IMG/VR virus record: IMGVR_UViG_3300036985_004708
Location: 1 to 20,381 of that record
DNA: 20,381 bases
Origin: a virus
Strand: one strand, 5' to 3'
Below are positions 2,193-19,216 of the stretch, piece by piece. Position numbers and translations under genes: made by a program. Each line of letters opens with the position of its first letter. Within the stretch, counting starts at the first letter, position 1. Below the pieces are notes generated by a model. It made no database searches. It had not been told where the DNA came from and worked only from the letters and a program-made list of their open reading frames with translations.

Positions 2193-2617
2193 TAGGGGCA
2201 TTGATCGATTTACGTTTTGCTGATTCAGATTCAACCAAGACGATGGATTGCTCAAAATGCCCTAGTTCTTTAAGGAAACAGAGAAAATGTGAACAGGATG
2301 GTTTGAATAATTTAGATCGTCCGATTTCTGTAGATTCATATGGGCTCAAGTTGACCTTTTGTCCAGCAAAGGCGACATGGTATCATGAATTTACAGAACT
2401 ATTCTCTCAGCTACTCGTTGCGTTAGAGACAGGTATTTTGCCGAAGGGTGGTAATCTCGAAGATCAAGATCAATTGTTTGTAGAGTTATTTCCTTATTTT
2501 GTAGATAGATACCGAGCTCGTCAATACAGTAGATCATGGGCTGATGTAATAACATTTGCTCCTAAAGTTTTAGAGGCAATAGGTAAGATGATTTCCCGGA
2601 TGTTTGGGGGTAAATAA
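2189..2617 (+). CDS. Tail assembly chaperone, gpT-like frameshift extension
   Basis: About 142 residues, probably made only as the C-terminal part of the frameshifted gpG-T protein. The only possible independent start is TTG 2201, with AGGGG just two or three bases upstream, which is a poor arrangement. Counting from that TTG, cysteines 17, 20, 30 and 54 (CSKC, KC, FCP) make a plausible metal-binding cluster, followed by a helical region (TELFSQLLVALETGIL; ELFPYFVDRYRARQ). In known systems the T part recruits the tape measure protein. It ends by overlapping the tape measure ATG by one base (TAATG), implying translational coupling. The gpT role is inferred from location and recoding, not from a recognised domain. 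Confidence 0.72.
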   Translation: MIGALIDLRFADSDSTKTMDCSKCPSSLRKQRKCEQDGLNNLDRPISVDSYGLKLTFCPAKATWYHEFTELFSQLLVALETGILPKGGNLEDQDQLFVELFPYFVDRYRARQYSRSWADVITFAPKVLEAIGKMISRMFGGK

Positions 2618-5600
2618 TGGCAGTTAAGACGACCGATGAGTTTGTAATTCCGCTTAGTGTAAAAGATGAGGTAACCAGCAAACTCAAGGAAATTGAGAAA
2701 GCGGTTAAATCTTTTATGTCAGCCTTAGATCAAGGCGGCGTGAACAAGATGAGTACATCTCTTGGTCAGGCTGGTAGCACAGCAGCTAAGGTATCTAAGG
2801 GGATGAAAGATAGTGGTGATGCGGCTAAAGCTGCTAGTTCATCGATTAGTATTTATGGGCTAACTCTAGGCAAGGTTAGTGCTGCCATATTTACTGCCAA
2901 TGCTTACCTAGACTTTTTCAATAGAACTATGAGAACTTTTACATCGACGATTGGAGCTGCTGTTGCTCCAGCGATTGCCTTGGAATCTGGTCTTGCTAAA
3001 ATCAATACTGTTTTACCTGAGGGAACTAAAAGCATTGAGAGTTTTAAGAATGAGATTTTAGCTTTTCAATCAAACTTTGGAGCGAAACAAGAGGATGTGA
3101 TTAGAGGCTACTACGACATGCTTCAGTCGGGAGCTGTAGATGCTGCTGATTCTACTAATCTTATGACAGTAGCCCAGAAGATGGCTGTAGCTGGATTTTC
3201 TACCTCCGATAAGATGATCCAAGGTTTAATCTCAGTGCTTGCTAACTATAATATGGAAGCAAAAGATGCTGCTAGAATTGCTGACTTAATGGCAATTGCT
3301 AACATGAACGGTAGAGTATCGATTGAAGGTTTGGCTGATAATATTGGTCAGGTAGCTGGTCTTGCCAACATGATGAATATTAGCCTTGAAGAAACGATGT
3401 CTGCGATGTCAACCATATCCATGGCAACATCTAACTCTGCTGAGGCTATGACTTCCTTTAGAGCTATCATCACTGGTATGTCAACACAAACAGGTGAATT
3501 CTCTGCTGTCATGCAAAGACTGGGCTATAACAGTATTCAGGCAATGATAGCCCAGAAGGGTTTTATCGGAACTATTCAGGCTCTTATTGCTGAGTCTGGT
3601 AATTCAGCAGAAGCACTATCTTCGATCTTCGGTAGGGTAGAAGCGAAGGTTGGTCTAGCAGCTCTTACTGCTGAAAAGACAGCTAAGATCTACGGTAAGA
3701 ACATGGACGATATGAAAGCTTCTGTAAACGATGCTGGATCGGTTATAGAGAAGCAATTCGGCATGGTAATGGATACGACAAGCAAGAAGCTAGAAATCCT
3801 CTCAGGATCGCTTACTACCCTTCTTGCGAATATTACATTTGGATCAGTTGATTCAATGAAAGATTCCCTTGATGGGCTTATTGAAAAGGTTCAAAAAGTA
3901 AACGATAACTTCAAATCATTGCTAGATACCTATGCTCTTTTAAATCAAGGAAACAATATTATAATCGATTCTTTTAAGTCTCTGGGTGAAATTCTTGTTA
4001 TTGCAGGATTATCATTTATAGCACTTAAGATTTCAGCAGTCGGTTCTTTCTCTGCTGTTCTCATTGCAGCAGCTCCAGTTGTATTAACGGTTTTAGCCAT
4101 GACAGCAGCCGTGGAGGGAGCGACTTGGGTCTTTAGAAACTGGGATACAATTTCATATGAACTAGGTCTTCGATTTAAACAAATGAGATATCACTTCAAT
4201 GAGTTCATACAGGATGGGATGAAGGGTATTTATGCCTATCTTGATGGTCTAAATAAGCTTGGTCTTGTTAGTGATAAGTTCTTGCATGACTATAGACTTA
4301 GTATTCTAAAGGGTGCTGATGCACAGAAGGAATTAAACAAGGAAATAGAAAACAGCAAGGCTACTTACAATGAAATGGCAAAAGACATGAAGGGATCTTT
4401 CCTTTATGACTATTTTACTAGTGCATCTAAATCTGTAGAGATCTATGGAAATAAATTAAATGAAGTAGAAAACAATGCCAGATTGGTAGCTGAAGCCCTT
4501 GCTGATGTTGCTGCAAATAATAAGAAAGTTTTTCTCCCAGAGACTAAAACACGAAGTCTTAACGGTGGAATTGATCCAAGTAATTTCGGACAATTTGAAC
4601 CACAGATTGATGATGAGACAAAGAAATATAAAACTCTCTATAATGATATGAATACTACCTATAAGGATTTTCTTGATACCAGAAGAAGATTGAATGCAGA
4701 ATTTCAAAAGCAAGAAAACATATCAAAGAAAGATGAGTATGAAAAAAGCATAGCCGAAGCTGAGAAGAAGTATAGAAATGCTGTTCAATCCTTTCAGCAA
4801 TTTATGGCCGATGAAGCATCAGCATCAGCTCAAGATCGTAGAGCAAAGCAAATTGAAGAAGTAGGTAAAAACCTTCCTATAGCTGCACAGTCCATGGGAT
4901 TAGATGATGATATTGATAAATGGGATAAGGTAACAGACGCAAAACATGAAGCACTGGCTATTCAAACCGATATAGTTTCCTCTTTTGAAAGAGAATTAGA
5001 CGTACATAAAAAAATTCTAGATATGGCTCGTGAGGGTAAACAAGGCCAGCGATTTGGTGGATATGAAGTTCCCGATGTAGAAAAAGCGAAACAAATAGTT
5101 GATATTTCACAGCGACTCTATGATAAATCTGCTTTGATTAGAGACAATGCAATTGATGAGGCTGGAGCCAGAGAAGATATTCAATATGCTATGGAAAATG
5201 AGAATGATCTACTCCAGAAAAAGATTAAATTAGAAAAAATGTATGCTGGCATTAAAGAAAAAGGCGGTTTAGCTGCTTTTGATATGGGTCAGATAGAGAC
5301 AGTAGGTAAAAACTTTGGCGCTCCTATGGCTAACGCTCTAGGTAATTTTACAGGGTTCATGGCTGGTCCTTTGGGTATGGTTTCTGCTGCTGGCATGATT
5401 CTAGATGGGCTAACTTCTATTGTTAATATGGTCGCAGAACTTCCCGGTAAGGCTGTTGGGCTAATAAAAGCAGTCAATGATATGCCAGTTAAAATTCTTA
5501 AATCTCTAGATGAACTTCCAAAAGAGATCATAAGATCAATAGCTGAACTTCCTAAAATGTTAGTGAAAATGATAAATAGATTTGCCGATCTCGGTCAGAT

Positions 5601-7212
5601 TATAACCGATGCGATTACAGAGGGTGTTGATAAGCTTTTTAATGATCCAGAGATGTTCAATAATCTGGGTCAAAACTTTGCGAAAATGTTAGTAAGCGGA
5701 TTAAGAGCAGCACTTTCTGGAATCAATTTATTTAAGGTTTTTTTCTCCCAGCTTGGCGACAATGCAGCAATGATGGGTTCTGAGATTAGCAAAGGGTTTG
5801 TCCTTGAGTTTAAAAGATTGGCAAATGATTTCGCTAAATTTCTAGATATGAAGCCATTCTTTGATATAGATGAGGGTGTTAAGAAAATTAACGCTGCCTC
5901 TGAGAAGCTAAATAATAATGCTATGCAGATGTTTTCGGTAACTGATCTCGGTCCTAGTAAACAAAATGTTGATATGGCAGATAGAATAAATAAAGCTACT
6001 GAAAACAGTAATAAGAAAACAGAATCAACATGGTCAAAAGCTATATCAAATATGCTTAAAACTATGTTTTTTTGGGAAAACCTAACTTACGAACTTGGCC
6101 TATGGACATGGAACAATATCATGCTCCCTATTATTGGTCTTTTAAAGGAGGCATGGTTATGGGTTTGGGAGAAGGTTCTTAGCCCAATAGTAACTGCTAT
6201 TAAGGGTGTTTGGCTCTGGGTATGGGAAAAGGTTATTTCACCAATCATAACTGGTATTACAGCCGTATTTCAATGGGCATGGGATAAAATATTCTCACCA
6301 ATAATCGATGGGATGACAGCGTTATTTCAATGGGTCTGGGATAAGATTTTCATGCCAATAATAGATGGAATCAAGGCGGTTTGGGATGGCGTCATTAAGC
6401 AGATAGAAACCCAATGGGAAAACATTAAAACCACATTTGCCATTTTGAAAGCTATCTGGGATGAAGTTTGGAAATTCTTTGATGAAAAGATAATAAAACC
6501 TCTTGGAAAATTATTTGATTGGATTGGTGAAGTATTTAGTAAAGCCGCCAGTGCTTTTGAGGGTGTTTTTAATTTCTTCATGAAGGGCATTGGATTTGTC
6601 GTTGGAATATTTAAATCTGTAGCTGAAGTATTTGAGCCAGTAGCTAAAGTATTTGCTGATATCTTTAAAGGAATAGGATCTATTTTTGATGGGATAGATT
6701 GGTCTGGAATAGGAGATAAAATCGGTGAAGCTTTTAGCAAAGCATTTGATGGAATAAAATCTTTCTTTTCTAAATTTTATAACACTCTTGCTGATCTAAT
6801 AAACGCAATGAAAATTCCAGCGTTTGAATATGGAATAAGCATATTAGGTAAAAAATATTCTGGTAAACTCTGGGATGAGATTGACCTTGTTCCCGGTGAT
6901 ATAGCCCATCTCGCAGAAGGTGGATTTGTTCCGAGGGGTACGGATACTGTACCAGCCATGTTAACTCCGGGTGAGTTTGTCGTTAATCGTCAATCTGCGA
7001 TGGCTAACATGGACTTGCTTAGAGCTATCAATTCAGGTTCTAGTTCTGTTTCTGCTGGAGGAGCGCCAATATTTAACATTACAATTAATGCCAGTACGCT
7101 TTTAACTCCTGATTCGATAAAAAGAGATATACTTCCTGCTGTAGAGAGAGAGCTAAAGAGAAAAAGCTTAGATGGATCATTCGTTATCGCTGCATCTGGA
7201 ATAAGGAAATAA
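2617..7212 (+). CDS. Tail tape measure protein
   Basis: 1531 residues; ATG 2617 overlaps the previous stop and follows a G-rich ribosome site (GGGGG near 2606-2610). It sets tail length and passes into the host envelope during DNA entry. Residues about 105-370 match the TP901-type core (AIALESGLAKINTV; SFRAIITGMSTQTGEFS; SSIFGRVEAKVGLAAL). Hydrophobic stretches lie at about 455-505 and 900-950, suited to membrane insertion, with charged helical or coiled-coil parts between them. Residues about 955-990 repeat an ELPKxI motif. Residues 1162-1256 form five 19-residue Trp repeats (separate entry). Near the C-terminus is the common tape measure signature GGFVPRGTDTVPAMLTPGEF (about residues 1433-1452). 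If roughly 1.5 angstrom per residue holds, the tail would be about 230 nm long. Assignment is very secure. Confidence 0.96.
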   Translation: MAVKTTDEFVIPLSVKDEVTSKLKEIEKAVKSFMSALDQGGVNKMSTSLGQAGSTAAKVSKGMKDSGDAAKAASSSISIYGLTLGKVSAAIFTANAYLDFFNRTMRTFTSTIGAAVAPAIALESGLAKINTVLPEGTKSIESFKNEILAFQSNFGAKQEDVIRGYYDMLQSGAVDAADSTNLMTVAQKMAVAGFSTSDKMIQGLISVLANYNMEAKDAARIADLMAIANMNGRVSIEGLADNIGQVAGLANMMNISLEETMSAMSTISMATSNSAEAMTSFRAIITGMSTQTGEFSAVMQRLGYNSIQAMIAQKGFIGTIQALIAESGNSAEALSSIFGRVEAKVGLAALTAEKTAKIYGKNMDDMKASVNDAGSVIEKQFGMVMDTTSKKLEILSGSLTTLLANITFGSVDSMKDSLDGLIEKVQKVNDNFKSLLDTYALLNQGNNIIIDSFKSLGEILVIAGLSFIALKISAVGSFSAVLIAAAPVVLTVLAMTAAVEGATWVFRNWDTISYELGLRFKQMRYHFNEFIQDGMKGIYAYLDGLNKLGLVSDKFLHDYRLSILKGADAQKELNKEIENSKATYNEMAKDMKGSFLYDYFTSASKSVEIYGNKLNEVENNARLVAEALADVAANNKKVFLPETKTRSLNGGIDPSNFGQFEPQIDDETKKYKTLYNDMNTTYKDFLDTRRRLNAEFQKQENISKKDEYEKSIAEAEKKYRNAVQSFQQFMADEASASAQDRRAKQIEEVGKNLPIAAQSMGLDDDIDKWDKVTDAKHEALAIQTDIVSSFERELDVHKKILDMAREGKQGQRFGGYEVPDVEKAKQIVDISQRLYDKSALIRDNAIDEAGAREDIQYAMENENDLLQKKIKLEKMYAGIKEKGGLAAFDMGQIETVGKNFGAPMANALGNFTGFMAGPLGMVSAAGMILDGLTSIVNMVAELPGKAVGLIKAVNDMPVKILKSLDELPKEIIRSIAELPKMLVKMINRFADLGQIITDAITEGVDKLFNDPEMFNNLGQNFAKMLVSGLRAALSGINLFKVFFSQLGDNAAMMGSEISKGFVLEFKRLANDFAKFLDMKPFFDIDEGVKKINAASEKLNNNAMQMFSVTDLGPSKQNVDMADRINKATENSNKKTESTWSKAISNMLKTMFFWENLTYELGLWTWNNIMLPIIGLLKEAWLWVWEKVLSPIVTAIKGVWLWVWEKVISPIITGITAVFQWAWDKIFSPIIDGMTALFQWVWDKIFMPIIDGIKAVWDGVIKQIETQWENIKTTFAILKAIWDEVWKFFDEKIIKPLGKLFDWIGEVFSKAASAFEGVFNFFMKGIGFVVGIFKSVAEVFEPVAKVFADIFKGIGSIFDGIDWSGIGDKIGEAFSKAFDGIKSFFSKFYNTLADLINAMKIPAFEYGISILGKKYSGKLWDEIDLVPGDIAHLAEGGFVPRGTDTVPAMLTPGEFVVNRQSAMANMDLLRAINSGSSSVSAGGAPIFNITINASTLLTPDSIKRDILPAVERELKRKSLDGSFVIAASGIRK
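6100..6384 (+). repeat. Five tandem 57-bp units encoding 19-residue Trp repeats
   Basis: Within the tape measure gene, residues 1162-1256 divide into five units of exactly 19 residues with no gaps. The consensus is (L/Q)WxWxKIxSPIIxGIxAx(F/W). Units begin at 6100, 6157, 6214, 6271 and 6328. The first is the most diverged (LWTWNNIMLPIIG). Degenerate Trp-rich sequence continues afterwards (IWDEVWKFF). The DNA copies differ at many synonymous sites, so the repeat is old and held by selection on the protein. Confidence 0.85.
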
Positions 7213-7216
7213 ACAA

Positions 7217-9052
7217 ATGGCCGATGTTCATAATGGATATTTAGAACTTAACTATCATCAATACCCTTATTTGACTGATCTACTTCTTCATTCAAGAGCT
7301 GTTCAGGTTGAGAAGGTTATTACCAAGTATGTTGATAATAATGTTCAGACTGAAAAGGTGTTAGATAAGACTGTTAATGTTGGATCTCAGCTAGAACGAT
7401 TCATCGATGCTACAGATTCTCTGGGTGTTCAAGCTAGGTTGTTAATTATCGATCCTCCTGACGATATAAACATGGGCTCACAAGTCCAATTAGTTCTTAG
7501 CAAAACTCTTTCGGTTGGCGCTCAGATTAGAAAATTGATGATTGATCCTCCTGATGATGCAAATATCGGATCTCAGGTTGAGAGACTGATTATCGATCCA
7601 CCTAACGACATAAATGTAAATGTTCAGGTTGATAAGAAATTGAGCCCAACGGGAGAAAACAATACTCAGGTTGAGCGTGTTTTAGATAAGCTAAGTAATA
7701 TCGGTACTCAGATTGAAAAACATATCGATGATTACAGAGTAAATAACTCTTCTCAGATATTAAAATATATCGAAACGACTGATGATTACGGTGTTCAGAT
7801 TTACAGAACAAGTCTTGAACATCATGTCTGTCAATACTACCTAAATTCATATCCGTATTTGACGACTTCTTATCATGCTGGATGCATAACAGCTAGGATG
7901 GCTACTCAGATTGAAAAAAGAGTAACCTTCAATATGAATAACGTAGGTACTCAGGTTAACAGGTACATCATTGATCCTCCTGACGATATGCGACTGGGCT
8001 CACAGATTGATAAAAGAGTTTATGCAGCTACCAGTTTTGCTTCTCAGATTGAGAAATTCCTTTATTATGTTGTTCCTCAAGGCGGTCAGGTCGAAAGGTT
8101 TATATCACTTGGGTTTGTTTACGGAGCTCAAGTTGAAAGCTTTCTATTTAAGCTAAGATCATTTGGAGTTCAGGTTAATAGGGTTTCAGCTAGTACGGTA
8201 GCTGTTCAGGTTAACAGACGACTATACAACATTACCCAGCTAAGAATTCTGGATATGTTTCTAAGCAGAGGAACTATAGCCCAGCAGGGTAACACTTGGA
8301 CAAATGAAATAGTCGGTGGTATAGCTCCCGGCGATTACAATGTCAATAACTTGAATACTGACTTAGTTGAGCAAATTACTAAAACATCTCCTGCTGAGAG
8401 AAGATTTAAGATTTACTGTAATACTGGGATACCTAATACCTTTGTCGATACCATAGCGATCATGAATCATAACTTTACTCCTAGTGCTGTAGTTGAGATT
8501 GTTGGATTCAAGGATCTTGCTGATTTTAACGCTGGTATTCCTACGATTGTAATTAGGCCAGTCCTTGAGCAATACAACATTTACTGGATTAGCCAAGATC
8601 TTCCTCTGAATCCTGCTCAGTATTGGAGATTTGATATTCAGGACGTAGGTAACCCATACCAGCTTCAGATGGGTACGATTGTATTTGGAACATCTAGGAT
8701 CATGACTGTAGCCGAGGGTTTTGATAACCCAGTATCATTTGGGTTTAAACACTATAAAGATTCGGTTGAGACTGAGGGTTTCAGTAACTTTTCTCTGGAT
8801 AGAGCACTAAGAAGAAATCTTGGTTTAACATTTAGTAAGCTTAAATATTACAGCGGTAATTATTTAATGATTAAAGATTTCTTTTTGAGTGTTAAAACCG
8901 ATTTGAAAGCACTGATTATTCCTAGACCTACTAAGCCTAGTGCTCTTGCTGTTTTTGCCAAGTTAAACGAGTTACCGACTGAATCACACGAGGCAATAAA
9001 TGATAATGAGCATTACATTTCATTTAATCTAGACTGGGATGAGGGGAATTAA
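7217..9052 (+). CDS. Putative tail tip protein with Gln-centred tandem repeats (Dit position)
   Basis: 611 residues; AGGA at 7203-7206 precedes ATG 7217, four bases after the tape measure stop. Residues 30-200 and 231-345 are made of about nineteen short beta-like units of 12-17 residues with an invariant Gln (Q-V/I-E/D/N-R/K-x-hydrophobic, often ending GT/GS before the next Q). Several units carry the loop IIDPPDD. Each block opens with a similar segment (LNYHQYPYL; LNSYPYLTT). Residues about 346-611 form a different globular domain (RILDMFLSRG; DTIAIMNHNFTPSAV; YWRFDIQDVGNP; GTIVFGTSRIM) that reads like a discoidin-style beta-sandwich seen in other phage tail proteins. The slot after the tape measure gene is usually the distal tail protein. 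The role is inferred; a fibre-attachment or side-tail protein is possible. Confidence 0.6.
   Translation: MADVHNGYLELNYHQYPYLTDLLLHSRAVQVEKVITKYVDNNVQTEKVLDKTVNVGSQLERFIDATDSLGVQARLLIIDPPDDINMGSQVQLVLSKTLSVGAQIRKLMIDPPDDANIGSQVERLIIDPPNDINVNVQVDKKLSPTGENNTQVERVLDKLSNIGTQIEKHIDDYRVNNSSQILKYIETTDDYGVQIYRTSLEHHVCQYYLNSYPYLTTSYHAGCITARMATQIEKRVTFNMNNVGTQVNRYIIDPPDDMRLGSQIDKRVYAATSFASQIEKFLYYVVPQGGQVERFISLGFVYGAQVESFLFKLRSFGVQVNRVSASTVAVQVNRRLYNITQLRILDMFLSRGTIAQQGNTWTNEIVGGIAPGDYNVNNLNTDLVEQITKTSPAERRFKIYCNTGIPNTFVDTIAIMNHNFTPSAVVEIVGFKDLADFNAGIPTIVIRPVLEQYNIYWISQDLPLNPAQYWRFDIQDVGNPYQLQMGTIVFGTSRIMTVAEGFDNPVSFGFKHYKDSVETEGFSNFSLDRALRRNLGLTFSKLKYYSGNYLMIKDFFLSVKTDLKALIIPRPTKPSALAVFAKLNELPTESHEAINDNEHYISFNLDWDEGN
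7304..8250 (+). repeat. Degenerate tandem repeat region (Q-V-E-R units, DPPDD loops)
   Basis: Two blocks (7304-7813 and 7907-8250) of 12-17-residue coding units inside the tail-tip gene. DNA-level identity is strongest around the DPPDD loops, where GATCCTCCTGA recurs near 7450, 7544 and 7973 and a variant lies near 7595. Unit length varies, so this is a protein-level solenoid or beta-meander rather than a recent microsatellite. Confidence 0.7.
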
Positions 9053-13373: not shown

Positions 13374-13802
13374 ATGTTTAGATTAATACTTCTGGGCTTC
13401 ATAATATCTATCTTCGGTAATCATTTTGCGTTTGGTCAAAACCAGAAATCATCTACTTCTGGGTTTGTAATTCCTGTCGGTACACTTATGCCATATGCAG
13501 GAACTACAGCTCCTAGCGGATGGGTACTTGCGGGTGGTCAGGAATATAGCACTACTGGAACATACGCTAAACTTTATGCTGTTATTGGCTTAACTTATTG
13601 TACTAACGATCATGGCGGCGGCGGCGCTTGTGCAGGTAGTATTTTTAGACTTCCTGATTTAAGAGGTAGAGCAATTAGCGGCAAAGACAACATGAACGGC
13701 ATTGCTGCTAATAGAATTACATCAGCTAAAACAATTGATGGAACAGTATTAGGTAAAGCTGGCGGCGGTCAGAATGTTGCTGGTCATTATCAGCGTTTAT
13801 AG
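13374..13802 (+). CDS. Short tail collar-domain protein with an apparent signal peptide
   Basis: 142 residues from ATG 13374, chosen because AAGGGG at 13362-13367 is well placed; an in-frame ATG at 13338 lies inside the fibre gene without a ribosome site. Residues 1-21 look like a Sec signal peptide: Arg at 3, a long hydrophobic core (LILLGFIISIFG), then AFG before Gln22. Residues about 29-105 are a phage tail collar domain (PVGTLMPYAGTTAPSGW; FRLPDLRGRAISG). Collar proteins normally continue through a His-rich loop to a terminal (N)YIIK strand; this one stops soon after DLRGR with GGGQNVAGHYQRL, so it appears truncated. A signal peptide is unexpected on a protein that should assemble on virions in the cytoplasm. 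It may be an exported adhesin-like protein or a recombinant remnant. Confidence 0.7.
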   Translation: MFRLILLGFIISIFGNHFAFGQNQKSSTSGFVIPVGTLMPYAGTTAPSGWVLAGGQEYSTTGTYAKLYAVIGLTYCTNDHGGGGACAGSIFRLPDLRGRAISGKDNMNGIAANRITSAKTIDGTVLGKAGGGQNVAGHYQRL

Positions 13803-14002
13803 TTTCTATTTTATCGGTAGCAATATTCGCATTAGTTACTGGGCTAAAGGAAGATCCTGAGCCCAAAGCGATTGGTGAGTTTGAATTTGAGGGAGCTAAG
13901 ACTAAAGTTTACCAAGCTGGTAGCTGTCAGATCTTTGCTACTAAATGGAAATCAAATGAAAACCCTAATTTCTTTTTTTCATGTAATAACGAACGTAAAT
14001 AA
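13802..14002 (+). pseudogene. Start-less open frame with a membrane segment (possible gene remnant or frameshifted product)
   Basis: A frame open from 13757 to TAA 14000-14002 contains no ATG, GTG or TTG. From 13802 it encodes 66 residues: a hydrophobic stretch (VSILSVAIFALVTGL) and then a polar tail with two cysteines (GSCQIFATKW; FFFSCNNERK), like a small membrane-anchored periplasmic protein. It is in the -1 frame relative to the collar gene, and no slippery heptamer was seen in the overlap. ATG 13774 opens a third frame (MLLVIISVYSFYF) that would need a +1 shift to enter it. Most likely a deletion or indel fused a collar gene to a small membrane-protein gene that lost its start. A sequencing indel would look the same. 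Confidence 0.4.
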
Positions 14003-14016
14003 ACAGAGGTTTAAAT

Positions 14017-14880
14017 ATGTCAGATCTAAAACTATCAAGACAGGCTAACGCAATACTTGCTCCTTACCCATCGAGCCCACAGGTAGCAGGTATGATTATG
14101 CCATTCGCTGGATCTTCAGCTCCTAGTGGTTGGGCTATATGCGATGGATCTGAAGTATCTATTGCATCATACGGTCAGTTATACGGAAGAATAGGTACAA
14201 CATGGAACTTGTGTACTAACCCACTAACAGGCGGTGTTAATGGCGCTCCTGCTGGCGGTAACTTTAGACTACCTGACTTAAGGGGTACGTTTCTAAGGGG
14301 TGTTGGTGACTTTGCAGATAACACTAAAGACACTACGCTAGGTGGGTTTCAGGCAGATCAGTTTCAAATACATGCCCATGATATTGTAACAAATGGTGGT
14401 TCTGGAGGTTCTGCTAAATGGGTTGCTTCTTTAACAAACGGAGGGGCTCCAAACCCAACACCACAAAACGGATTTGTTTCAAGTTCTAATACTGGGAGTT
14501 ATGGTACAGAAACCCGTCCACAAAACGTAGGCATAAACTACCTCATCAAACTATACGACGATGCTGGATCGATAGTCATGGCAGGTAGCCCATTTATTGG
14601 ATCAGAATTTCAGCCTAGTCCACTGACTATTACTGGAAACAATACTCTGTCATTATCTAAGTTTTATACAATTAGCAGTGCAGCTCCAACGACACAGACA
14701 CTACCAGCGGCTACGGGTAGCAACGGTGTTATAACAGTAGAAAATACTGGAACTGCACTAGTAACAGTAGATGGAAATGGATCAGAAACAATTAATGGAA
14801 TAGCTAACCAGATTATTGGTCAGTATGCTTCTCTTAAGTTAAGAGATTATGCTGCTGGTAAATGGATAGTAATGCACTAA
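14017..14880 (+). CDS. Tail collar-domain fibre protein with C-terminal tip module
   Basis: 287 residues; AGAGG at 14005-14009 precedes ATG 14017. The collar domain spans residues about 24-180: AGMIMPFAGSSAPSGWAICDG, FRLPDLRGTFLRGVGD, then FQIHAHDI and the closing strand TETRPQNVGINYLIKLYDD. Residues about 190-287 add a strand-rich module ending TLPAATGSNGVITVEN ... DYAAGKWIVMH, the same kind of tip module as at the end of the fibre gene at 12206. No signal peptide is present, unlike the preceding collar protein. Collar proteins form short fibres or the tips of receptor-binding structures. It is probably a receptor-binding subunit, and an alternative or partner to the collar proteins on either side. 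Confidence 0.85.
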   Translation: MSDLKLSRQANAILAPYPSSPQVAGMIMPFAGSSAPSGWAICDGSEVSIASYGQLYGRIGTTWNLCTNPLTGGVNGAPAGGNFRLPDLRGTFLRGVGDFADNTKDTTLGGFQADQFQIHAHDIVTNGGSGGSAKWVASLTNGGAPNPTPQNGFVSSSNTGSYGTETRPQNVGINYLIKLYDDAGSIVMAGSPFIGSEFQPSPLTITGNNTLSLSKFYTISSAAPTTQTLPAATGSNGVITVENTGTALVTVDGNGSETINGIANQIIGQYASLKLRDYAAGKWIVMH

Positions 14881-14892
14881 AAGGAGAAATGT

Positions 14893-15543
14893 ATGGCTTT
14901 TAATCTTGTACCTTCGGGAACAATTTTACCGTTTGGTGGTCCTAATGCTCCGAGTGGATGGCTTTTGTGTAATGGGCTATCTGTATCTCAAACAGCATAT
15001 CCAGCTTTGTATGATGTTGTTGGTGTTCTCTGGGGTAATCCCGGGGGTGGATCTTTTAATGTTCCTAACTTAGTAGGAGCGTTTGCTAGAGGTATCGGAA
15101 CAAGCGGTGTTCATGTTGGTCCTTCTGGGGTAGGTGTTGTTCAAACTCATGCTACAGCTAAGAACGGTTTAGCTAATGCTGCAAGTTCATTAAGTTCTGG
15201 CTCTGCTACTGGATCAGGCGATCACTCCCATGGAGCTACGACAACCGGAACAGGTAGTCATGACCATGATTTAAACAATGGTGGTGGTGGTGGTGCATTA
15301 ACTGGTGATACTTCTTTTACCGTTGCTTCAGGTGGAAGTGCTACCGTTGCTTCGGGTTTTGGTGGAGTATTAATAAACCTTGATAGAACATCAACATCAG
15401 GAAGTACACACAGTCATGGTATTAGTGCTAGTGGTACTCATACTCATCCGGTAACTGGAACATGTGATGCACAAACATTATCATCAACCGATACTGAGAC
15501 TAGACCAAACTCTAAGGGTGTTAACTACATCATTAAGATTTAA
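14893..15543 (+). CDS. Tail collar-domain protein with HxH metal-binding motifs
   Basis: 216 residues with a strong ribosome site (AAGGAG at 14881-14886, 6 bases before ATG 14893). A collar domain runs from residue about 7 (PSGTILPFGGPNAPSGWLLC; FNVPNLVGAFARGIG) to the terminal strand TETRPNSKGVNYIIKI. Between them is a Gly/Ser/Thr-rich, low-complexity stretch with four HxH motifs: HSH 111-113, HDH 123-125, HSH 173-175 and HTH 183-185. In phage long and short tail fibres such motifs coordinate iron or zinc along the trimer axis. The Gly-rich run (NNGGGGGALTGD) is flexible. Likely a trimeric short fibre or fibre tip that touches the receptor. Confidence 0.87.
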   Translation: MAFNLVPSGTILPFGGPNAPSGWLLCNGLSVSQTAYPALYDVVGVLWGNPGGGSFNVPNLVGAFARGIGTSGVHVGPSGVGVVQTHATAKNGLANAASSLSSGSATGSGDHSHGATTTGTGSHDHDLNNGGGGGALTGDTSFTVASGGSATVASGFGGVLINLDRTSTSGSTHSHGISASGTHTHPVTGTCDAQTLSSTDTETRPNSKGVNYIIKI

Positions 15544-15552
15544 GGAGTAAAT

Positions 15553-15774
15553 ATGCAATTACAGTTAATAGCAGGTGATTACGACTGGACAGAACAAGGC
15601 ACACATGTCTGGGATGCTAACGGTTTTTCTACTATTATTACTGAAGCAAAGACAGTAGAGATGGATCAAGAAATTTATGATGTTACTATTGGATTTGTTG
15701 AGGCAGCTAGAATAGAACGTGGTCTAAATGCTGATGGATCTGTTCCTGAATCTTTAATCCCTGATGAACCATGA
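15553..15774 (+). CDS. Small acidic hypothetical protein at the end of the collar cluster
   Basis: 73 residues; AAGGAG at 15542-15547 overlaps the previous stop and sits 5 bases before ATG 15553. The protein is strongly acidic (MQLQLIAGDYDWTEQGTH; EMDQEIYDVTIGFVEAARIE; PESLIPDEP), with no cysteine, signal peptide or membrane segment. The good ribosome site and tight spacing support a real gene. Small genes directly after fibre genes are often chaperones or connectors for them, but nothing in the sequence proves that here. It is the last plus-strand gene before the reversed island. Confidence 0.68.
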   Translation: MQLQLIAGDYDWTEQGTHVWDANGFSTIITEAKTVEMDQEIYDVTIGFVEAARIERGLNADGSVPESLIPDEP

Positions 15775-15781
15775 CACAAAA

Positions 15782-15843
15782 ATAACGAATAAAAAAGAAT
15801 AACGAATATGTCCTCGCTATCTATAAAGCAGGACATTCGTTAT
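15782..15843. repeat. ATAACGAAT: two direct copies and one inverted copy
   Basis: The 9-mer ATAACGAAT occurs at 15782-15790 and 15799-15807, and its reverse complement ATTCGTTAT at 15835-15843. The second and third copies form the base of the terminator stem. The extra direct copy is not explained by the terminator and could offer an alternative pairing or a protein-binding site. Confidence 0.6.
15791..15843 (-). terminator. Rho-independent terminator of the reversed island
   Basis: The stem ATAACGAAT / ATTCGTTAT continues as GTCCT / AGGAC after a two-base bulge (left arm 15799-15814, right arm 15830-15843, loop 15815-15829). Read on the minus strand, the stem is followed by TC and six T residues (plus-strand AAAAAA 15791-15796). 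On the plus strand no T-run follows the stem, so it is oriented to stop minus-strand transcription about 100 bases after the nuclease gene. It may also slow plus-strand transcripts arriving from the collar genes. Confidence 0.65.
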
Positions 15844-15939
15844 CTTGCATCGATCCTATCAATACATTCTTCCCCCCAAGACCGATGGCTAAACCAGTCC
15901 TGAAGAAAGAAGAAGATAATGTGATTGAGTTTAAAAAGC

Positions 15940-16281
15940 TTAATACTTAGCTTCGACGGCAAGACCTTTTTCCAAAAGAGACTGACCTAGATTTTGATCT
16001 CCTATGACATCGCATACATATCGACCATATGGATCTTTACCATGCTCAATCAAGGTGACGCCCTTATATACGAATTGCTCTAGATACTCTTTGGCTTCTA
16101 TAGCTTTTTGGGCTTTTACTATATCTTTGTCTTTTAGCTCATAAGCATTAACATCTTTAATTCTTACTCTTATGCAGATTGACACATTAAACCCAAGGTC
16201 AATGGAGACATCGAGGGTATCTCCATCAACAACATGGGTTATAACTCCGGTATAAATTCTTTGTGTCTTTTTCTTACTCAT
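15940..16281 (-). CDS. Staphylococcal nuclease-like (thermonuclease family) protein
   Basis: 113 residues. ATG 16281-16279 overlaps the upstream TGA as ATGA, so I prefer it to the in-frame ATG five codons upstream. The whole protein is one SNase fold domain, which cuts DNA or RNA using calcium. Visible motifs: VVDGDT (Asp19, Asp21), RIKDVNAYE (Arg40, Glu48, matching R35 and E43 of staphylococcal nuclease) and DPYGRYVCDV (Arg87 matching R87), then LGQSLLEKGLAV. The residue equivalent to calcium ligand Asp40 is Asn45, and the usual Pro before the catalytic Glu is Tyr. There is no signal peptide, so it should act in the cytoplasm. It may degrade host or competitor nucleic acid. Translation is probably coupled to the peptidase fragment. 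Confidence 0.85.
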   Translation of the reverse strand: MSKKKTQRIYTGVITHVVDGDTLDVSIDLGFNVSICIRVRIKDVNAYELKDKDIVKAQKAIEAKEYLEQFVYKGVTLIEHGKDPYGRYVCDVIGDQNLGQSLLEKGLAVEAKY

Positions 16282-16523
16282 GGCGCATACCAACATCGTG
16301 GTCGGTTGTTACAAGAATAAGACTGAGCAGCAGATCTTGGGATAACTGCATCATTCCAAGAGTTCTTACAAAGCGCAGCAGCTACCATCGTATCTAGTCG
16401 GCACTGAGCAGCAGGATGAGAATCAGAAGTCCTAGAGACAACACTAGTATCCTTCCTATTGATATCTACTCCAGTACCTCCAAGAGCTCCCAATAGTCTT
16501 GCTAACGATAGCCCACCCATCAT
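16278..16523 (-). CDS. C-terminal part of the interrupted metallopeptidase (possible reinitiated 81-residue product)
   Basis: The frame is open from directly after the TAA at 16604-16602 down to TGA 16280-16278 (107 codons) and is in the same frame as the peptidase upstream. From 16601 it starts SVEPKVTADCNGFWQ, has a Cys pair (DCNGFWQ; YICKRG) and continues MMGGLSLARLL, HPAAQCRLDTMVAAALC and YSCNNRPRCWYAP. The HPAAQCRLDT segment recalls the C-terminal region of secreted M48-like proteins from predatory bacteria. An AGAGG one base before ATG 16523 could let this part be made separately, but it would then lack the first cysteines. It ends in an ATGA overlap with the nuclease gene. Confidence 0.6.
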   Translation of the reverse strand: MMGGLSLARLLGALGGTGVDINRKDTSVVSRTSDSHPAAQCRLDTMVAAALCKNSWNDAVIPRSAAQSYSCNNRPRCWYAP

Positions 16524-16601
16524 GCCTCTTTTGCAGATGTATCTGTTCTTAGAGTTTTGCCAGAATCCATTACAATCAGCGGTTACCTTGGGCTCAACAC
16601 T

Positions 16602-16604
16602 TTA
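16602..16604 (-). other. In-frame TAA splitting the metallopeptidase gene
   Basis: The codons read GAT CCC ATA TAA AGT GTT GAG on the minus strand. Frame and protein character continue on both sides without any shift, so a single base change (for example from a TAT or TAC Tyr codon) would restore a 268-residue protein. Other genes here end in TAA, so general reassignment of this codon is excluded. Confidence 0.7.
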
Positions 16605-17078
16605 TATGGGATCTGTTTTAGTATCGATCATTTTTCTAAAGCAAACATGAGGAGCAAAATAATCAGATTGCCCTTCATTTGAAGCCCAATCTCCTTGATA
16701 TACAGGAAAACCGCCAAGGTGATGACCGATTTCATGACAAACTACAAGTCTAAAACCATCTGAAGTCATCTCAGGACGACGTGCCATTCCACCAAACATT
16801 TTTACAAACCAGTTACCGTTTTGCTGATACGCATAGGCATTAACTGTAGAATCATTCCAGTCTCTTTCTATTGCGAATCTAGCTCCAAACTGGGCTACAA
16901 TTGGTTTATAGATTTTCTCTGCATCACCGATAATAGAATTAAACTCCTGTTCGGTCATGTTAGATGCCGCAAACGAGTCATACATATGAAGATCGTTTTC
17001 CGGCATAAATGATTTGGTTTGCCCCATTGCATCTCCGCACGATACCATTAGCATAAAGATCATAAAAATTCTGACCAT
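16602..17078 (-). CDS. Secreted M48-like zinc metallopeptidase, N-terminal catalytic part
   Basis: 158 residues from ATG 17078-17076, with AAGGAG (plus-strand 17085-17090) six bases upstream; TTG 17084 is too close to that site. Residues 1-19 form an export signal (VRIFMIFMLMV, then SCGDAMG), cleaved either after Gly19 or, less typically, as a lipoprotein at Cys14. The catalytic motif is HEIGHH at 115-120 after VVC, with VNAYAY at 79-84 as the usual upstream strand of M48 peptidases. Downstream EGQSD at 135-139 fits the ExxAD pattern that supplies the third zinc ligand (Glu135). All expected catalytic residues lie before the TAA. The enzyme would act in the periplasm or outside the cell. It is the first gene of the reversed island and has its own candidate promoter. 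Confidence 0.8.
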   Translation of the reverse strand: MVRIFMIFMLMVSCGDAMGQTKSFMPENDLHMYDSFAASNMTEQEFNSIIGDAEKIYKPIVAQFGARFAIERDWNDSTVNAYAYQQNGNWFVKMFGGMARRPEMTSDGFRLVVCHEIGHHLGGFPVYQGDWASNEGQSDYFAPHVCFRKMIDTKTDPI

Positions 17079-17110
17079 AGACAACTCCTTTTATTTTTGG
17101 GTCTACTTAA

Positions 17111-17139
17111 AGCATAAATCCAATAGATTGCCCTTGCAA
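17111..17139 (-). promoter_or_regulatory. Candidate sigma-70-type promoter of the reversed island
   Basis: Read on the minus strand, TTGCAA (17139-17134), a 17-base spacer, then TATGCT (17116-17111); each hexamer matches consensus at four of six positions. Transcription would begin near 17103, leaving a short leader before the AAGGAG of the peptidase. The divergent gap 17079-17247 must also drive the plus-strand gene at 17248; an extended -10-like TGTTAATAT at 17187-17195 is a weak candidate without a good -35. Confidence 0.42.
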
Positions 17140-17247
17140 CAAGACTGCTGTAAAAGAAAATTAATGACAAAATAATGGTAGTTGGGTGTTAATATAAATC
17201 GTTAGATAAAAACTAAATAAGTAATCCGGTTTATTCTGGGGTAAAAT

Positions 17248-17601
17248 ATGAACGTAACTTCGATAAGAAACATGCACAAAACTGTTTTGTATAATGGCCC
17301 TATGGCTGGAGATTTTACTTCAGAAATAGGCGATTTCAAGGAAATGGCAGTCGGGTTTATACAGGCTATCTTTACTGGAAATGATACCACAAATGGAATA
17401 TTTAGACTACTTGTTAGTATCGATGATAGGGATGATACTTTCGCACTACTGTCTGGTAGCGAGCAAGCTACCGATGGTGATTGTCCTTCTGTTGGATGGA
17501 ATTTATGTTGCATTGGCTATCGTTTTATTAAAGTGCAATTCATAGCAAACGATAACACTACCGGAGACTGCTTAGTGTTAGCCGTTGGAAAACTGGGGTA
17601 A
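17248..17601 (+). CDS. Hypothetical virion-type protein
   Basis: 117 residues, the first plus-strand gene after the reversed island; a GGGG lies 8 bases before ATG 17248. The sequence reads like a single beta-sandwich: FKEMAVGFIQAIFTG, GIFRLLVSIDDRDDTF, ALLSGSEQ, GYRFIKVQFIAND, TTGDCLVLAVGKLG. Alternating strands with a substitute-for-mean-and-deviation layout like this are common in small phage accessory structural proteins. Four cysteines are present (DCPSVGWNLCC; GDCL). No signal peptide or membrane segment. It ends two bases before the next gene. The structural role is inferred from shape and neighbours; no named family is claimed. Confidence 0.68.
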   Translation: MNVTSIRNMHKTVLYNGPMAGDFTSEIGDFKEMAVGFIQAIFTGNDTTNGIFRLLVSIDDRDDTFALLSGSEQATDGDCPSVGWNLCCIGYRFIKVQFIANDNTTGDCLVLAVGKLG

Positions 17602-17603
17602 AT

Positions 17604-17939
17604 ATGGCTGGAGTTATGAATATACCACAATACCCATCCGAACTTATTAGGTTCGATGATATGGTTATTGATGAGGTTGTAATAGGCCTTATTAATGGAG
17701 TAAATAATCATTTTGATACTATTAGTGTTTTTAAATCTGGTACACTATCCATATACCTAGACGGTCGCAAACTTACCATTTTAGATTACCAAGAATCTCT
17801 TAACTCGCAGGGGTTTGATTTAATCATTAATACTAGTGATTCTCAAAGACTTCAAAGACCGTTAAGGGATACCGAAGAGGTTAGAGTAAGCTATCTTAGG
17901 AATAGATCATCGGGTAAACAGTGCATTAAAAACATGTAA
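17604..17939 (+). CDS. Hypothetical virion protein with DGRKL / TEE module
   Basis: 111 residues; GGGG at 17595-17598 precedes ATG 17604, and a second in-frame ATG at 17616 has a GGAG that is too close. The C-terminal half carries LSIYLDGRKL (about residues 47-56) and LQRPLRDTEEVRVSYL (about residues 83-98). The next gene has the same two motifs (HLYIDGRKLRLG and NKPPRNTEELFIDYRRIL) further apart, so the two proteins share a module and probably a function or partner. No signal peptide or membrane segment. The family is unknown to me. Tight spacing with both neighbours suggests one transcript. Confidence 0.7.
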   Translation: MAGVMNIPQYPSELIRFDDMVIDEVVIGLINGVNNHFDTISVFKSGTLSIYLDGRKLTILDYQESLNSQGFDLIINTSDSQRLQRPLRDTEEVRVSYLRNRSSGKQCIKNM

Positions 17940-17953
17940 AGGAGAGTAGAGAT

Positions 17954-19216
17954 ATGGGTCAAACAAACTTGGAAAGAACTTATTTTGAGCCAAGAGTAGA
18001 GATTACTACTTCTGGAAACCTTGGCAGACAAGAGGTCGGTTTTACCGGATACTTCAGAATCGGTGATACTGTCGAGATTCTTGATGTTGGACCTAATGGA
18101 TGCATAATATCTATCCTTACTACTGCAACGATTGCAGCTATCGAAAAAGATGTTGCGCTTATCTTTACGGCTCCTGTAGATACCTCTTTGGCTACTGGAA
18201 CACCCTATGCACAAGTAAGAAACATTGACGATGGTCAAGAGGCAGTAGATCGTCTTTATCGCACGATTCAACTGGGTCAAGAATGCCAGATAATCGAGCC
18301 CATTCTCGATCAGGCACTTAATACTCCAGCCGGTGGTCAAGGTACTTATGATGTTGGCGATATTGGCTACTTCAGAGTAGGTGACAGTGTTGTCATTCTT
18401 CATGATAACGGCGCAAGTGCAGTCGCTACTGTTCTTTCTACAAGCCGTAACGCTGATGAAGCTAACAATGCAGGAACGATTGTTATTAACTCATCGATTG
18501 ATACATCTACTTGGACTAACCCAAAATTCCAGATGCTTCTACCGATCTGTACTTCGATAGCTCGTCTTAAAGACGATATTGATGCGATCGATCAGCCTAT
18601 CGAGAACGAAGATTTGGATACTCCAGATTGCTCAAACACAGTTTTTGAAACTGATGGGCTATTCAAGGCAGCTACTACTCATCTCTATATTGATGGTAGA
18701 AAGCTTAGACTTGGCACAATGGGAACAAGAGCAGCTAGAACAGTTGGCGCTGGCGATGCGGCTCTGACTTACACTAGTATGATCCTTGGTACTAACGGCA
18801 ATGCTACTGATGTTAAGGTTACTGCTGGCGCTGGATTAACGGTTACTGTAACAGGTGATTTCGTTAACGGTTACTTGGTTGACTGTACAGATAACAGCGG
18901 TGTTGCTACTGCTGCTCAAGTAGCAGCGGCAATCAATGCCAATGCAGCAGCTAAGAGACTTGTTCAGGTTCAATACGGCGGCACTGGAGCTGATCCAGTA
19001 GTAGCTTTTGCTGCTACCTCTCTTACTGGTGGTCTGAATAATGGAACTGGCGATTATGCAGAAGTACCACAAATCTTTGAAAACAAGATTGTAGCTACTG
19101 GTTACAAGTGGGTTTCTCTCTGGATACTTCCTAATGACAGAAACAGACTTAATAAGCCTCCTAGAAACACCGAAGAACTTTTTATCGACTATAGGCGAAT
19201 TCTTTATAACGCCTAA
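17954..19216 (+). CDS. Multi-domain virion structural protein
   Basis: 420 residues with a strong ribosome site (AAAGGAG at 17938-17944). Two N-terminal SH3-like repeats are visible: GYFRIGDTVEILDVGPNG (about residues 32-49) and GYFRVGDSVVILHDNGAS (about residues 138-155), each followed by a strand pair ending in a D-T/S motif. The C-terminal half has the LYIDGRKL ... PPRNTEELFIDYR module of the preceding gene, split by an inserted domain of about 110 residues (GTNGNATDVKVTAGAGLTV; TAAQVAAAINANAAAKRL; ATSLTGGLNNGTGDY) that resembles the insert in the tail tube protein. Codon choice is regular and a strong terminator follows, suggesting an abundant protein. Tail or capsid decoration, or a fibre component, would fit. 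No exact family is recognised. Confidence 0.72.
   Translation: MGQTNLERTYFEPRVEITTSGNLGRQEVGFTGYFRIGDTVEILDVGPNGCIISILTTATIAAIEKDVALIFTAPVDTSLATGTPYAQVRNIDDGQEAVDRLYRTIQLGQECQIIEPILDQALNTPAGGQGTYDVGDIGYFRVGDSVVILHDNGASAVATVLSTSRNADEANNAGTIVINSSIDTSTWTNPKFQMLLPICTSIARLKDDIDAIDQPIENEDLDTPDCSNTVFETDGLFKAATTHLYIDGRKLRLGTMGTRAARTVGAGDAALTYTSMILGTNGNATDVKVTAGAGLTVTVTGDFVNGYLVDCTDNSGVATAAQVAAAINANAAAKRLVQVQYGGTGADPVVAFAATSLTGGLNNGTGDYAEVPQIFENKIVATGYKWVSLWILPNDRNRLNKPPRNTEELFIDYRRILYNA

Follow-up and report, generated by a model that had tools for sequence, protein, structure and literature searches.

A two-gene unit on the minus strand of a phage tail module pairs a putative exported zinc metalloprotease with an SNase-like nuclease that is predicted to stay in the cytoplasm, and is best read as a recurrent degradative, probably lysis-accessory unit of phages that infect predatory bacteria. 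The preferred reading, given a probability of roughly 0.45, is that of a two-gene accessory operon of Bdellovibrionota phages whose products would help to dismantle the host and its prey for virion exit. By comparison with its homologues, the protease of the phage analysed here is a single gene split by one in-frame TAA. The DNA under study, referred to as the window, is a whole IMG/VR record of 20,381 bases from a tailed phage and represents its tail module.

Gene content and signals of the reversed cassette

The features used in the analysis are listed below, in window positions.

2617-7212: tape-measure gene
13374, 14017 and 14893: starts of collar-domain fibre ORFs
14017-14880 and 14893-15543, plus strand: two collar-domain tail-fibre genes converging on the cassette (PF07484, 8.7e-16 and 2.7e-16)
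15553-15774, plus strand: small gene after the collar genes; its relative in contig L118 is placed between collar genes
15791-15846, minus strand: hairpin and U tract resembling an intrinsic terminator, after the SNase gene (dG -20.6 kcal/mol, z -4.4, 0/200 shuffles)
15940-16281, minus strand: SNase-like nuclease, 113 aa, no signal peptide (PF00565, 2.3e-8; phrog_452 endonuclease, 2.6e-25)
16278-16281, minus strand: ATGA overlap of the SNase start and the final stop of the protease; no Shine-Dalgarno sequence upstream of the SNase
16278-17078, minus strand: zinc-metalloprotease gene, start ATG at 17078, ancestral frame of 266 codons, the internal TAA included, followed by TGA (16278-16280)
16389-16418, minus strand: HPAAQCRLDT, in the C-terminal half behind the internal stop; its P...CR..T core occurs in remote actinobacterial and rhizobial relatives
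16602-16604, minus strand: in-frame TAA, at codon 159, within the variable linker that joins the zinc-motif half to the C-terminal half
16662-16676, minus strand: EGQSD (residues 135-139), with the likely third zinc ligand Glu; EGxxD in all aligned phage members
16722-16736, minus strand: HEIGH zinc-binding motif (residues 115-119); HExxH in all aligned phage members and nearly invariant in hosts
17085-17090, minus strand: Shine-Dalgarno sequence AAGGAG, 6 nt ahead of the ATG at 17078
17248-19216, plus strand: genes of unknown family on the other flank of the cassette (starts 17248, 17604 and 17954)

A first-pass annotation made from the sequence had described a reversed, self-contained cassette of two or three genes, encoding a secreted protease and a cytoplasmic nuclease, amid plus-strand tail-fibre genes. 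The cassette is real: a two-gene minus-strand unit (15940-17078) is inserted between plus-strand genes, one ending at 15774 and the other starting at 17248. What was retained of that description is an accessory unit in reverse orientation that encodes an exported protease and a cytoplasmic nuclease; neither a dedicated promoter nor a third gene nor an intact protease found support. The frames at 17078-16602 and 16523-16278 are one frame containing a TAA, leaving two genes; a separate gene at 16523-16278 was rejected, as it shares the frame of the protease and is homologous to the C-terminal half of the family. A foreign base composition of the cassette was likewise rejected (G+C 39.8% vs 39.0%). 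Rfam and tRNA scans returned no matches. Neither an endolysin nor a holin lies beside the cassette within the window.

The nuclease scored 34.9 bits against PF00565 (cut-off 21), and its DGDT, R-x-R-I, A-Y-E and YGR motifs align with those of its relatives; no solved SNase could be aligned. Its profile matches, together with the lack of a signal peptide, agree with the earlier call of a cytoplasmic SNase-like nuclease. Because the SNase start overlaps the protease stop and has no Shine-Dalgarno sequence of its own, translation of the SNase is probably coupled to the protease frame. The SNase would thus depend on that frame being translated, and an early stop would therefore be expected to weaken SNase translation.

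The terminator had been placed correctly for minus-strand transcription, the predicted hairpin being followed by a U tract on that strand; the plus strand also folds at this site (z -5.7), but without a U tract. The candidate promoter could not be recovered. No site of at least 9/12 was found on the minus strand at 17085-17250, and promoter-like sites in the region numbered 5, no higher than in shuffled sequences (6.8 +/- 2.7), both results being for the sigma-70 pattern alone.

Upstream of these genes, in the stretch 13374-14008, a collar-domain ORF has an N-terminal signal peptide (MFRLILLGFIISIFGNHFAFGQ...) and ends early at 13802; directly behind this point, in another frame and lacking a start codon, comes an open stretch that would encode a small membrane protein (...AFIVSILSVAIFALVTGLKEDPEPK...). 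The arrangement looks like a deletion junction, and a collar protein with an apparent signal peptide is odd among tail proteins. Collar relatives were found in 12 of 291 genomes of the Bdellovibrionota. Secreted, phage-fibre-like MAT proteins have been described in Bdellovibrio (PMC10769870).

The protease and its internal stop codon

A hydrophobic, export-type signal is predicted at the N-terminus of the protease. The M48-like combination of HExxH and a downstream Glu ligand (HEIGH and EGQSD) predicts zinc binding. This signal and the zinc motif uphold most of the earlier label of secreted M48-like peptidase, in which "M48" is fair in a loose sense and misses the Pfam cut-off for that family. 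Pfam matches of the window protease to zincins were all below threshold; PF01435 reached 15 bits (E 0.022) against a gathering score of 20.3, and the best PF01435 match among members of the protease family was 0.0013. The read-through protein was modelled at a mean pLDDT of 51 (low confidence), and the top fold matches of this low-confidence model were zincins (ZMPSTE24, MATCAP and Wss1-type), all weak at E >= 0.15. Solved structures searched with the protease and the SNase gave no significant match.

That the protease is intact was not borne out. Members of the family were expected to have an uninterrupted frame, and the window copy is interrupted by the TAA at 16602-16604. No stop occurs at this position in any of 40 aligned host homologues, whose linker is not conserved there, and the host family proteins among the matches listed contain no stops. 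Since the homologues read straight across the stop position, the window sequence is taken as one protease gene and not two. The 158-residue truncated product most likely lacks something essential, because the half carrying HPAAQCRLDT, the core of which is conserved in remote relatives, sits behind the stop. The TAA would have arisen recently by mutation, reflect an error in the sequence, or be read through. That the phage recodes TAA throughout was rejected, as 13 of the 20 other called genes end in TAA.

Conservation extends across the stop. Among columns at least 95% conserved in hosts, the window protease keeps 32/37 before the stop and 18/23 after it (50 of the 60 near-invariant host columns); for columns at least 90% conserved in phage members the figures are 19/21 and 21/22 (40/43 overall). 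Codon usage in the half behind the TAA still favours the protease frame. These observations bear on the possibility that the protease is a pseudogene and the cassette a decaying leftover without present function in the window phage. Such decay would fit a stop placed ahead of a motif conserved throughout the superfamily, and the truncated collar ORF with its out-of-frame remnant, about 3 kb away, points to a loss of sequence from the fibre region. Against decay, the SNase is intact, and any break in the protease should be very recent, because 21 of the 22 near-invariant residues, a clean frame and frame-favouring codon usage persist behind the stop; we consider the leftover explanation improbable.

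Distribution of the protease family and of the gene pair

A relative found by genome scan in an Oligoflexia genome (G001) was 41% identical, matching residues 69-268. Within the phylum of G001, the Bdellovibrionota, the family is present in 199 of 291 genomes, often in several tandem copies, as against 3 of 299 genomes of Pseudomonadota, in which the core region alone was matched. The best host matches were 41-50% identical over nearly the full length (among those listed, E of about 1e-57 to 1e-71, the E-values of relatives searches being relative to the candidates, and coverage of about 20-268 of 268). One near host relative, L021, is found with a clostripain and an M15 peptidase in a chromosomal setting with no obvious phage genes. 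From this distribution of the family, the window phage probably infects predatory, Bdellovibrio-like bacteria (Bdellovibrionota), a link that had been guessed at and is now strongly supported. Against this link, the structural gene at 7217-9052 had no relative in the Bdellovibrionota genomes. More generally, relatives of the window structural genes were absent from viral contigs, annotated phages and the 291 phylum genomes, save for weak tape-measure matches, and no near relatives of the window phage were found.

The 50,697 annotated phage records contained no member of the protease family, and scans of viral contigs with the single protease sequence or a two-row alignment found nothing. With a profile of the host family, the protease was found in 30 further IMG/VR contigs; the supposition that it is unique to the window phage was wrong, and absence from the annotated records says little about uncultured phages. 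Terminase was matched in 19 of the 30 contigs by the one terminase model used, the other 11 being unmatched. All aligned phage members keep HExxH and EGxxD. An earlier report of a phage-borne member of this family was not found in the open-licence literature. Contigs L110-L112, L099 and L124 (56-356 kb), which also carry the protease, possibly belong to jumbo phages with hosts in the same phylum. The terminase match of contig L107 (G603:C1:330-1880) runs through about 12 stop codons, which would fit an insertion or intron in the terminase gene, or else a joining artefact.

The protease tree placed the window in a 21-row clade (support 99/99), with 18 rows from phages and 3 from hosts. Because the phage label needs 6 changes overall, at least 3 of them forced by strong branches, several host-phage transfers of the protease are likely.

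Protease frames are intact in all 30 contigs except L123 (10001-10848), where the frame is shifted in the same linker that holds the window TAA; its near relatives L110 and L111 are intact. Programmed recoding or readthrough at the linker could in principle set the level of full-length protease, most of the product being the zinc half, and it is to this that the exact placement of the stop in the variable linker and the frameshift there in the only other broken copy would point. The frame nevertheless runs on without a break in the 40 host members, in the remaining phage members and in the close relatives of L123, and such recoding is hardly credible.

The IMG/VR contigs were assigned to groups defined by shared genes. 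The flanking genes are shared in group A (L097, L101, L108, L109, L118 and L120), and in each of the six the protease gene runs opposite to one neighbour or more, in L097, L101, L109 and L118 to both. These four resemble the window in having an antisense protease near collar or other tail genes; collar genes are close to it in L097, L101 and L118, and L118 carries the relative of the small window gene at 15553. The group A protease is also adjoined by a small gene (L097 8629-8991, L101 11321-11719, L118 10770-11111) with a weak DUF1353 match (0.0044 in L118), possibly a lysis-related enzyme.

Group B comprises L103/L104, L113 and, in part, L106, and its terminase has a relative in just 1 of the 291 phylum genomes. 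The gene order in L103/L104 and L113 is amidase endolysin (phrog_822, 1.6e-40), papain-type C1 protease (PF00112, 1.5e-51, with an apparent export signal), zinc protease and SNase; that in L106 is C1-like fragment, zinc protease, SNase and second zinc protease. These operons occupy L103 8270-12500, L113 1940-4794 and L106 569-3092. The protease-SNase junction of L113 is an ATGA overlap, as in the window, and the two genes overlap in L103 too. Behind the L103 operon is an antisense GH5 cellulase gene.

In group C (L114-L117 and L119), the protease gene comes immediately after the major head protein gene and is followed by two small genes, and the remaining contigs, some of 164-356 kb, have it in yet other locations; the link to lysis is therefore not general.

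SNase genes are held by 9 of the 30 contigs and adjoin the protease in 6 (L102-L106 and L113), or 5 when the near-copy L104 is dropped, so that the same pair is indeed found in other phages. A rough random-position estimate puts the chance of 5 of 8 SNases being adjacent at about 3e-7. Most of the 30 contigs have no SNase beside the protease. The pair was also looked for in Bdellovibrionota genomes and was not found there: SNase matches occurred in 19 of the 291 genomes, and none of those retrieved had the protease within about 1.5 kb. The SNase next to the protease in L105 (9488-9901) has an apparent signal peptide, unlike that of the window, and the nuclease may therefore be exported in some phages.

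Proposed role and comparison with known systems

The gene context in relatives favours a role in degradation or lysis over a role in the tail. To our knowledge, little is known of the way in which phages of predatory bacteria get out when the host is in turn inside a prey cell. In the exit reading preferred here, the protease and SNase would both be made during infection, presumably late. The protease would move to the periplasm or outside and digest proteins of the envelope and debris; the SNase would stay in the cytoplasm until lysis and then cut the released nucleic acid. Together with an endolysin, they would dismantle the host cell and let the virions out, and where the predator is inside its prey, the surrounding prey remnant would be dismantled too. 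Full-length protease from the window genome would need readthrough, unless the TAA is a recent mutation or sequence error.

Precedents come from the predators themselves: the secreted protease Bd2269 shortens the time to exit from the prey and lyses E. coli cells from the inside (PMC12546842), and nucleases are secreted by predators into prey in sequence (PMC7925074). They make the exit proposal plausible and do not test it. A more elaborate form, a "double-exit" kit in which endolysin, papain-type protease, predator-type zinc protease and SNase would break open the predator together with the dead shell of its prey, with the window as a two-gene version, is tentative and somewhat doubtful.

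The protease might instead, from a prophage or early in infection, improve prey digestion and so benefit the lysogen or phage production, the SNase being a hitch-hiker or a processor of nucleic acid. In keeping with this, the protease belongs to the host's own expanded secreted family, the cassette has a terminator-like hairpin, and the protease gene varies in position among phages and in several opposes the genes on both its sides, features common in accessory genes. The 20 kb tail fragment shows neither an integrase nor another lysogeny gene, though, the promoter scan found none, and the group B protease sits behind an endolysin; this explanation is judged unlikely. A known defence system was rejected, PADLOC models giving no match. 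The same result counts against surface modification, in which the protease would cleave receptors or competitors' targets (superinfection exclusion) and the nuclease degrade incoming DNA. An exported protease and a cytoplasmic SNase would cover both sides of the envelope, and we hold this very unlikely all the same.

On the preferred reading of an exit operon, a digestive protease and a nuclease carried by phages, behind an endolysin in one lineage, provide named genes with which phage exit can be tested. The protease family also offers a marker for Bdellovibrionota phages in metagenomes.

The closest known proteins are the secreted M48-like metalloproteases of Bdellovibrionota (for example L016, L017, L021 and L033), which like the window protease have an N-terminal signal, are 41-50% identical to it over nearly the full length, and share the motifs TVNAYA, HExGHH, EGQ.DY, HP..QCRLDT and P.CW(Y/F). 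Differing from these, most phage copies fall in phage-dominated clades of their own, and the window copy is broken by the TAA. Peptidase M48 (PF01435) shares HExxH and the conserved Glu, with weak profile similarity and weak zincin fold matches from a low-confidence structure model; the window protease is below the Pfam cut-off and has a separate C-terminal motif, HP..QCR.DT. Proteins of Actinobacteria and Rhizobiales (L002 and L005-L011) share the protease core and P...CR..T, but have a long extra N-terminal region, which we take to be Hint-like, and lack the longer Bdellovibrionota C-terminal insert; they are about 460-490 aa long, with the core at the C-terminus.

The SNase shares its family and the DGDT, Arg/Glu and YGR motifs with phage SNase-like endonucleases (phrog_452; SP-15, cyanophages and Staphylococcus phages), from which it differs in its identity of at most about 39% to annotated-phage SNases and in being paired with a protease. 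Bd2269 of B. bacteriovorus (PMC12546842) is a host protein and is likened to the window protease for the idea of an exit protease alone, with no homology claimed. Like phage morons, the cassette is a reversed accessory unit with a predicted terminator among structural genes; it departs from them in that no promoter was found just upstream of it and its G+C is not distinct (39.8% vs 39.0%). The endolysin or holin neighbour of a phage lysis cassette is absent in the window, whereas in L103/L104 and L113 the unit comes after an amidase gene.
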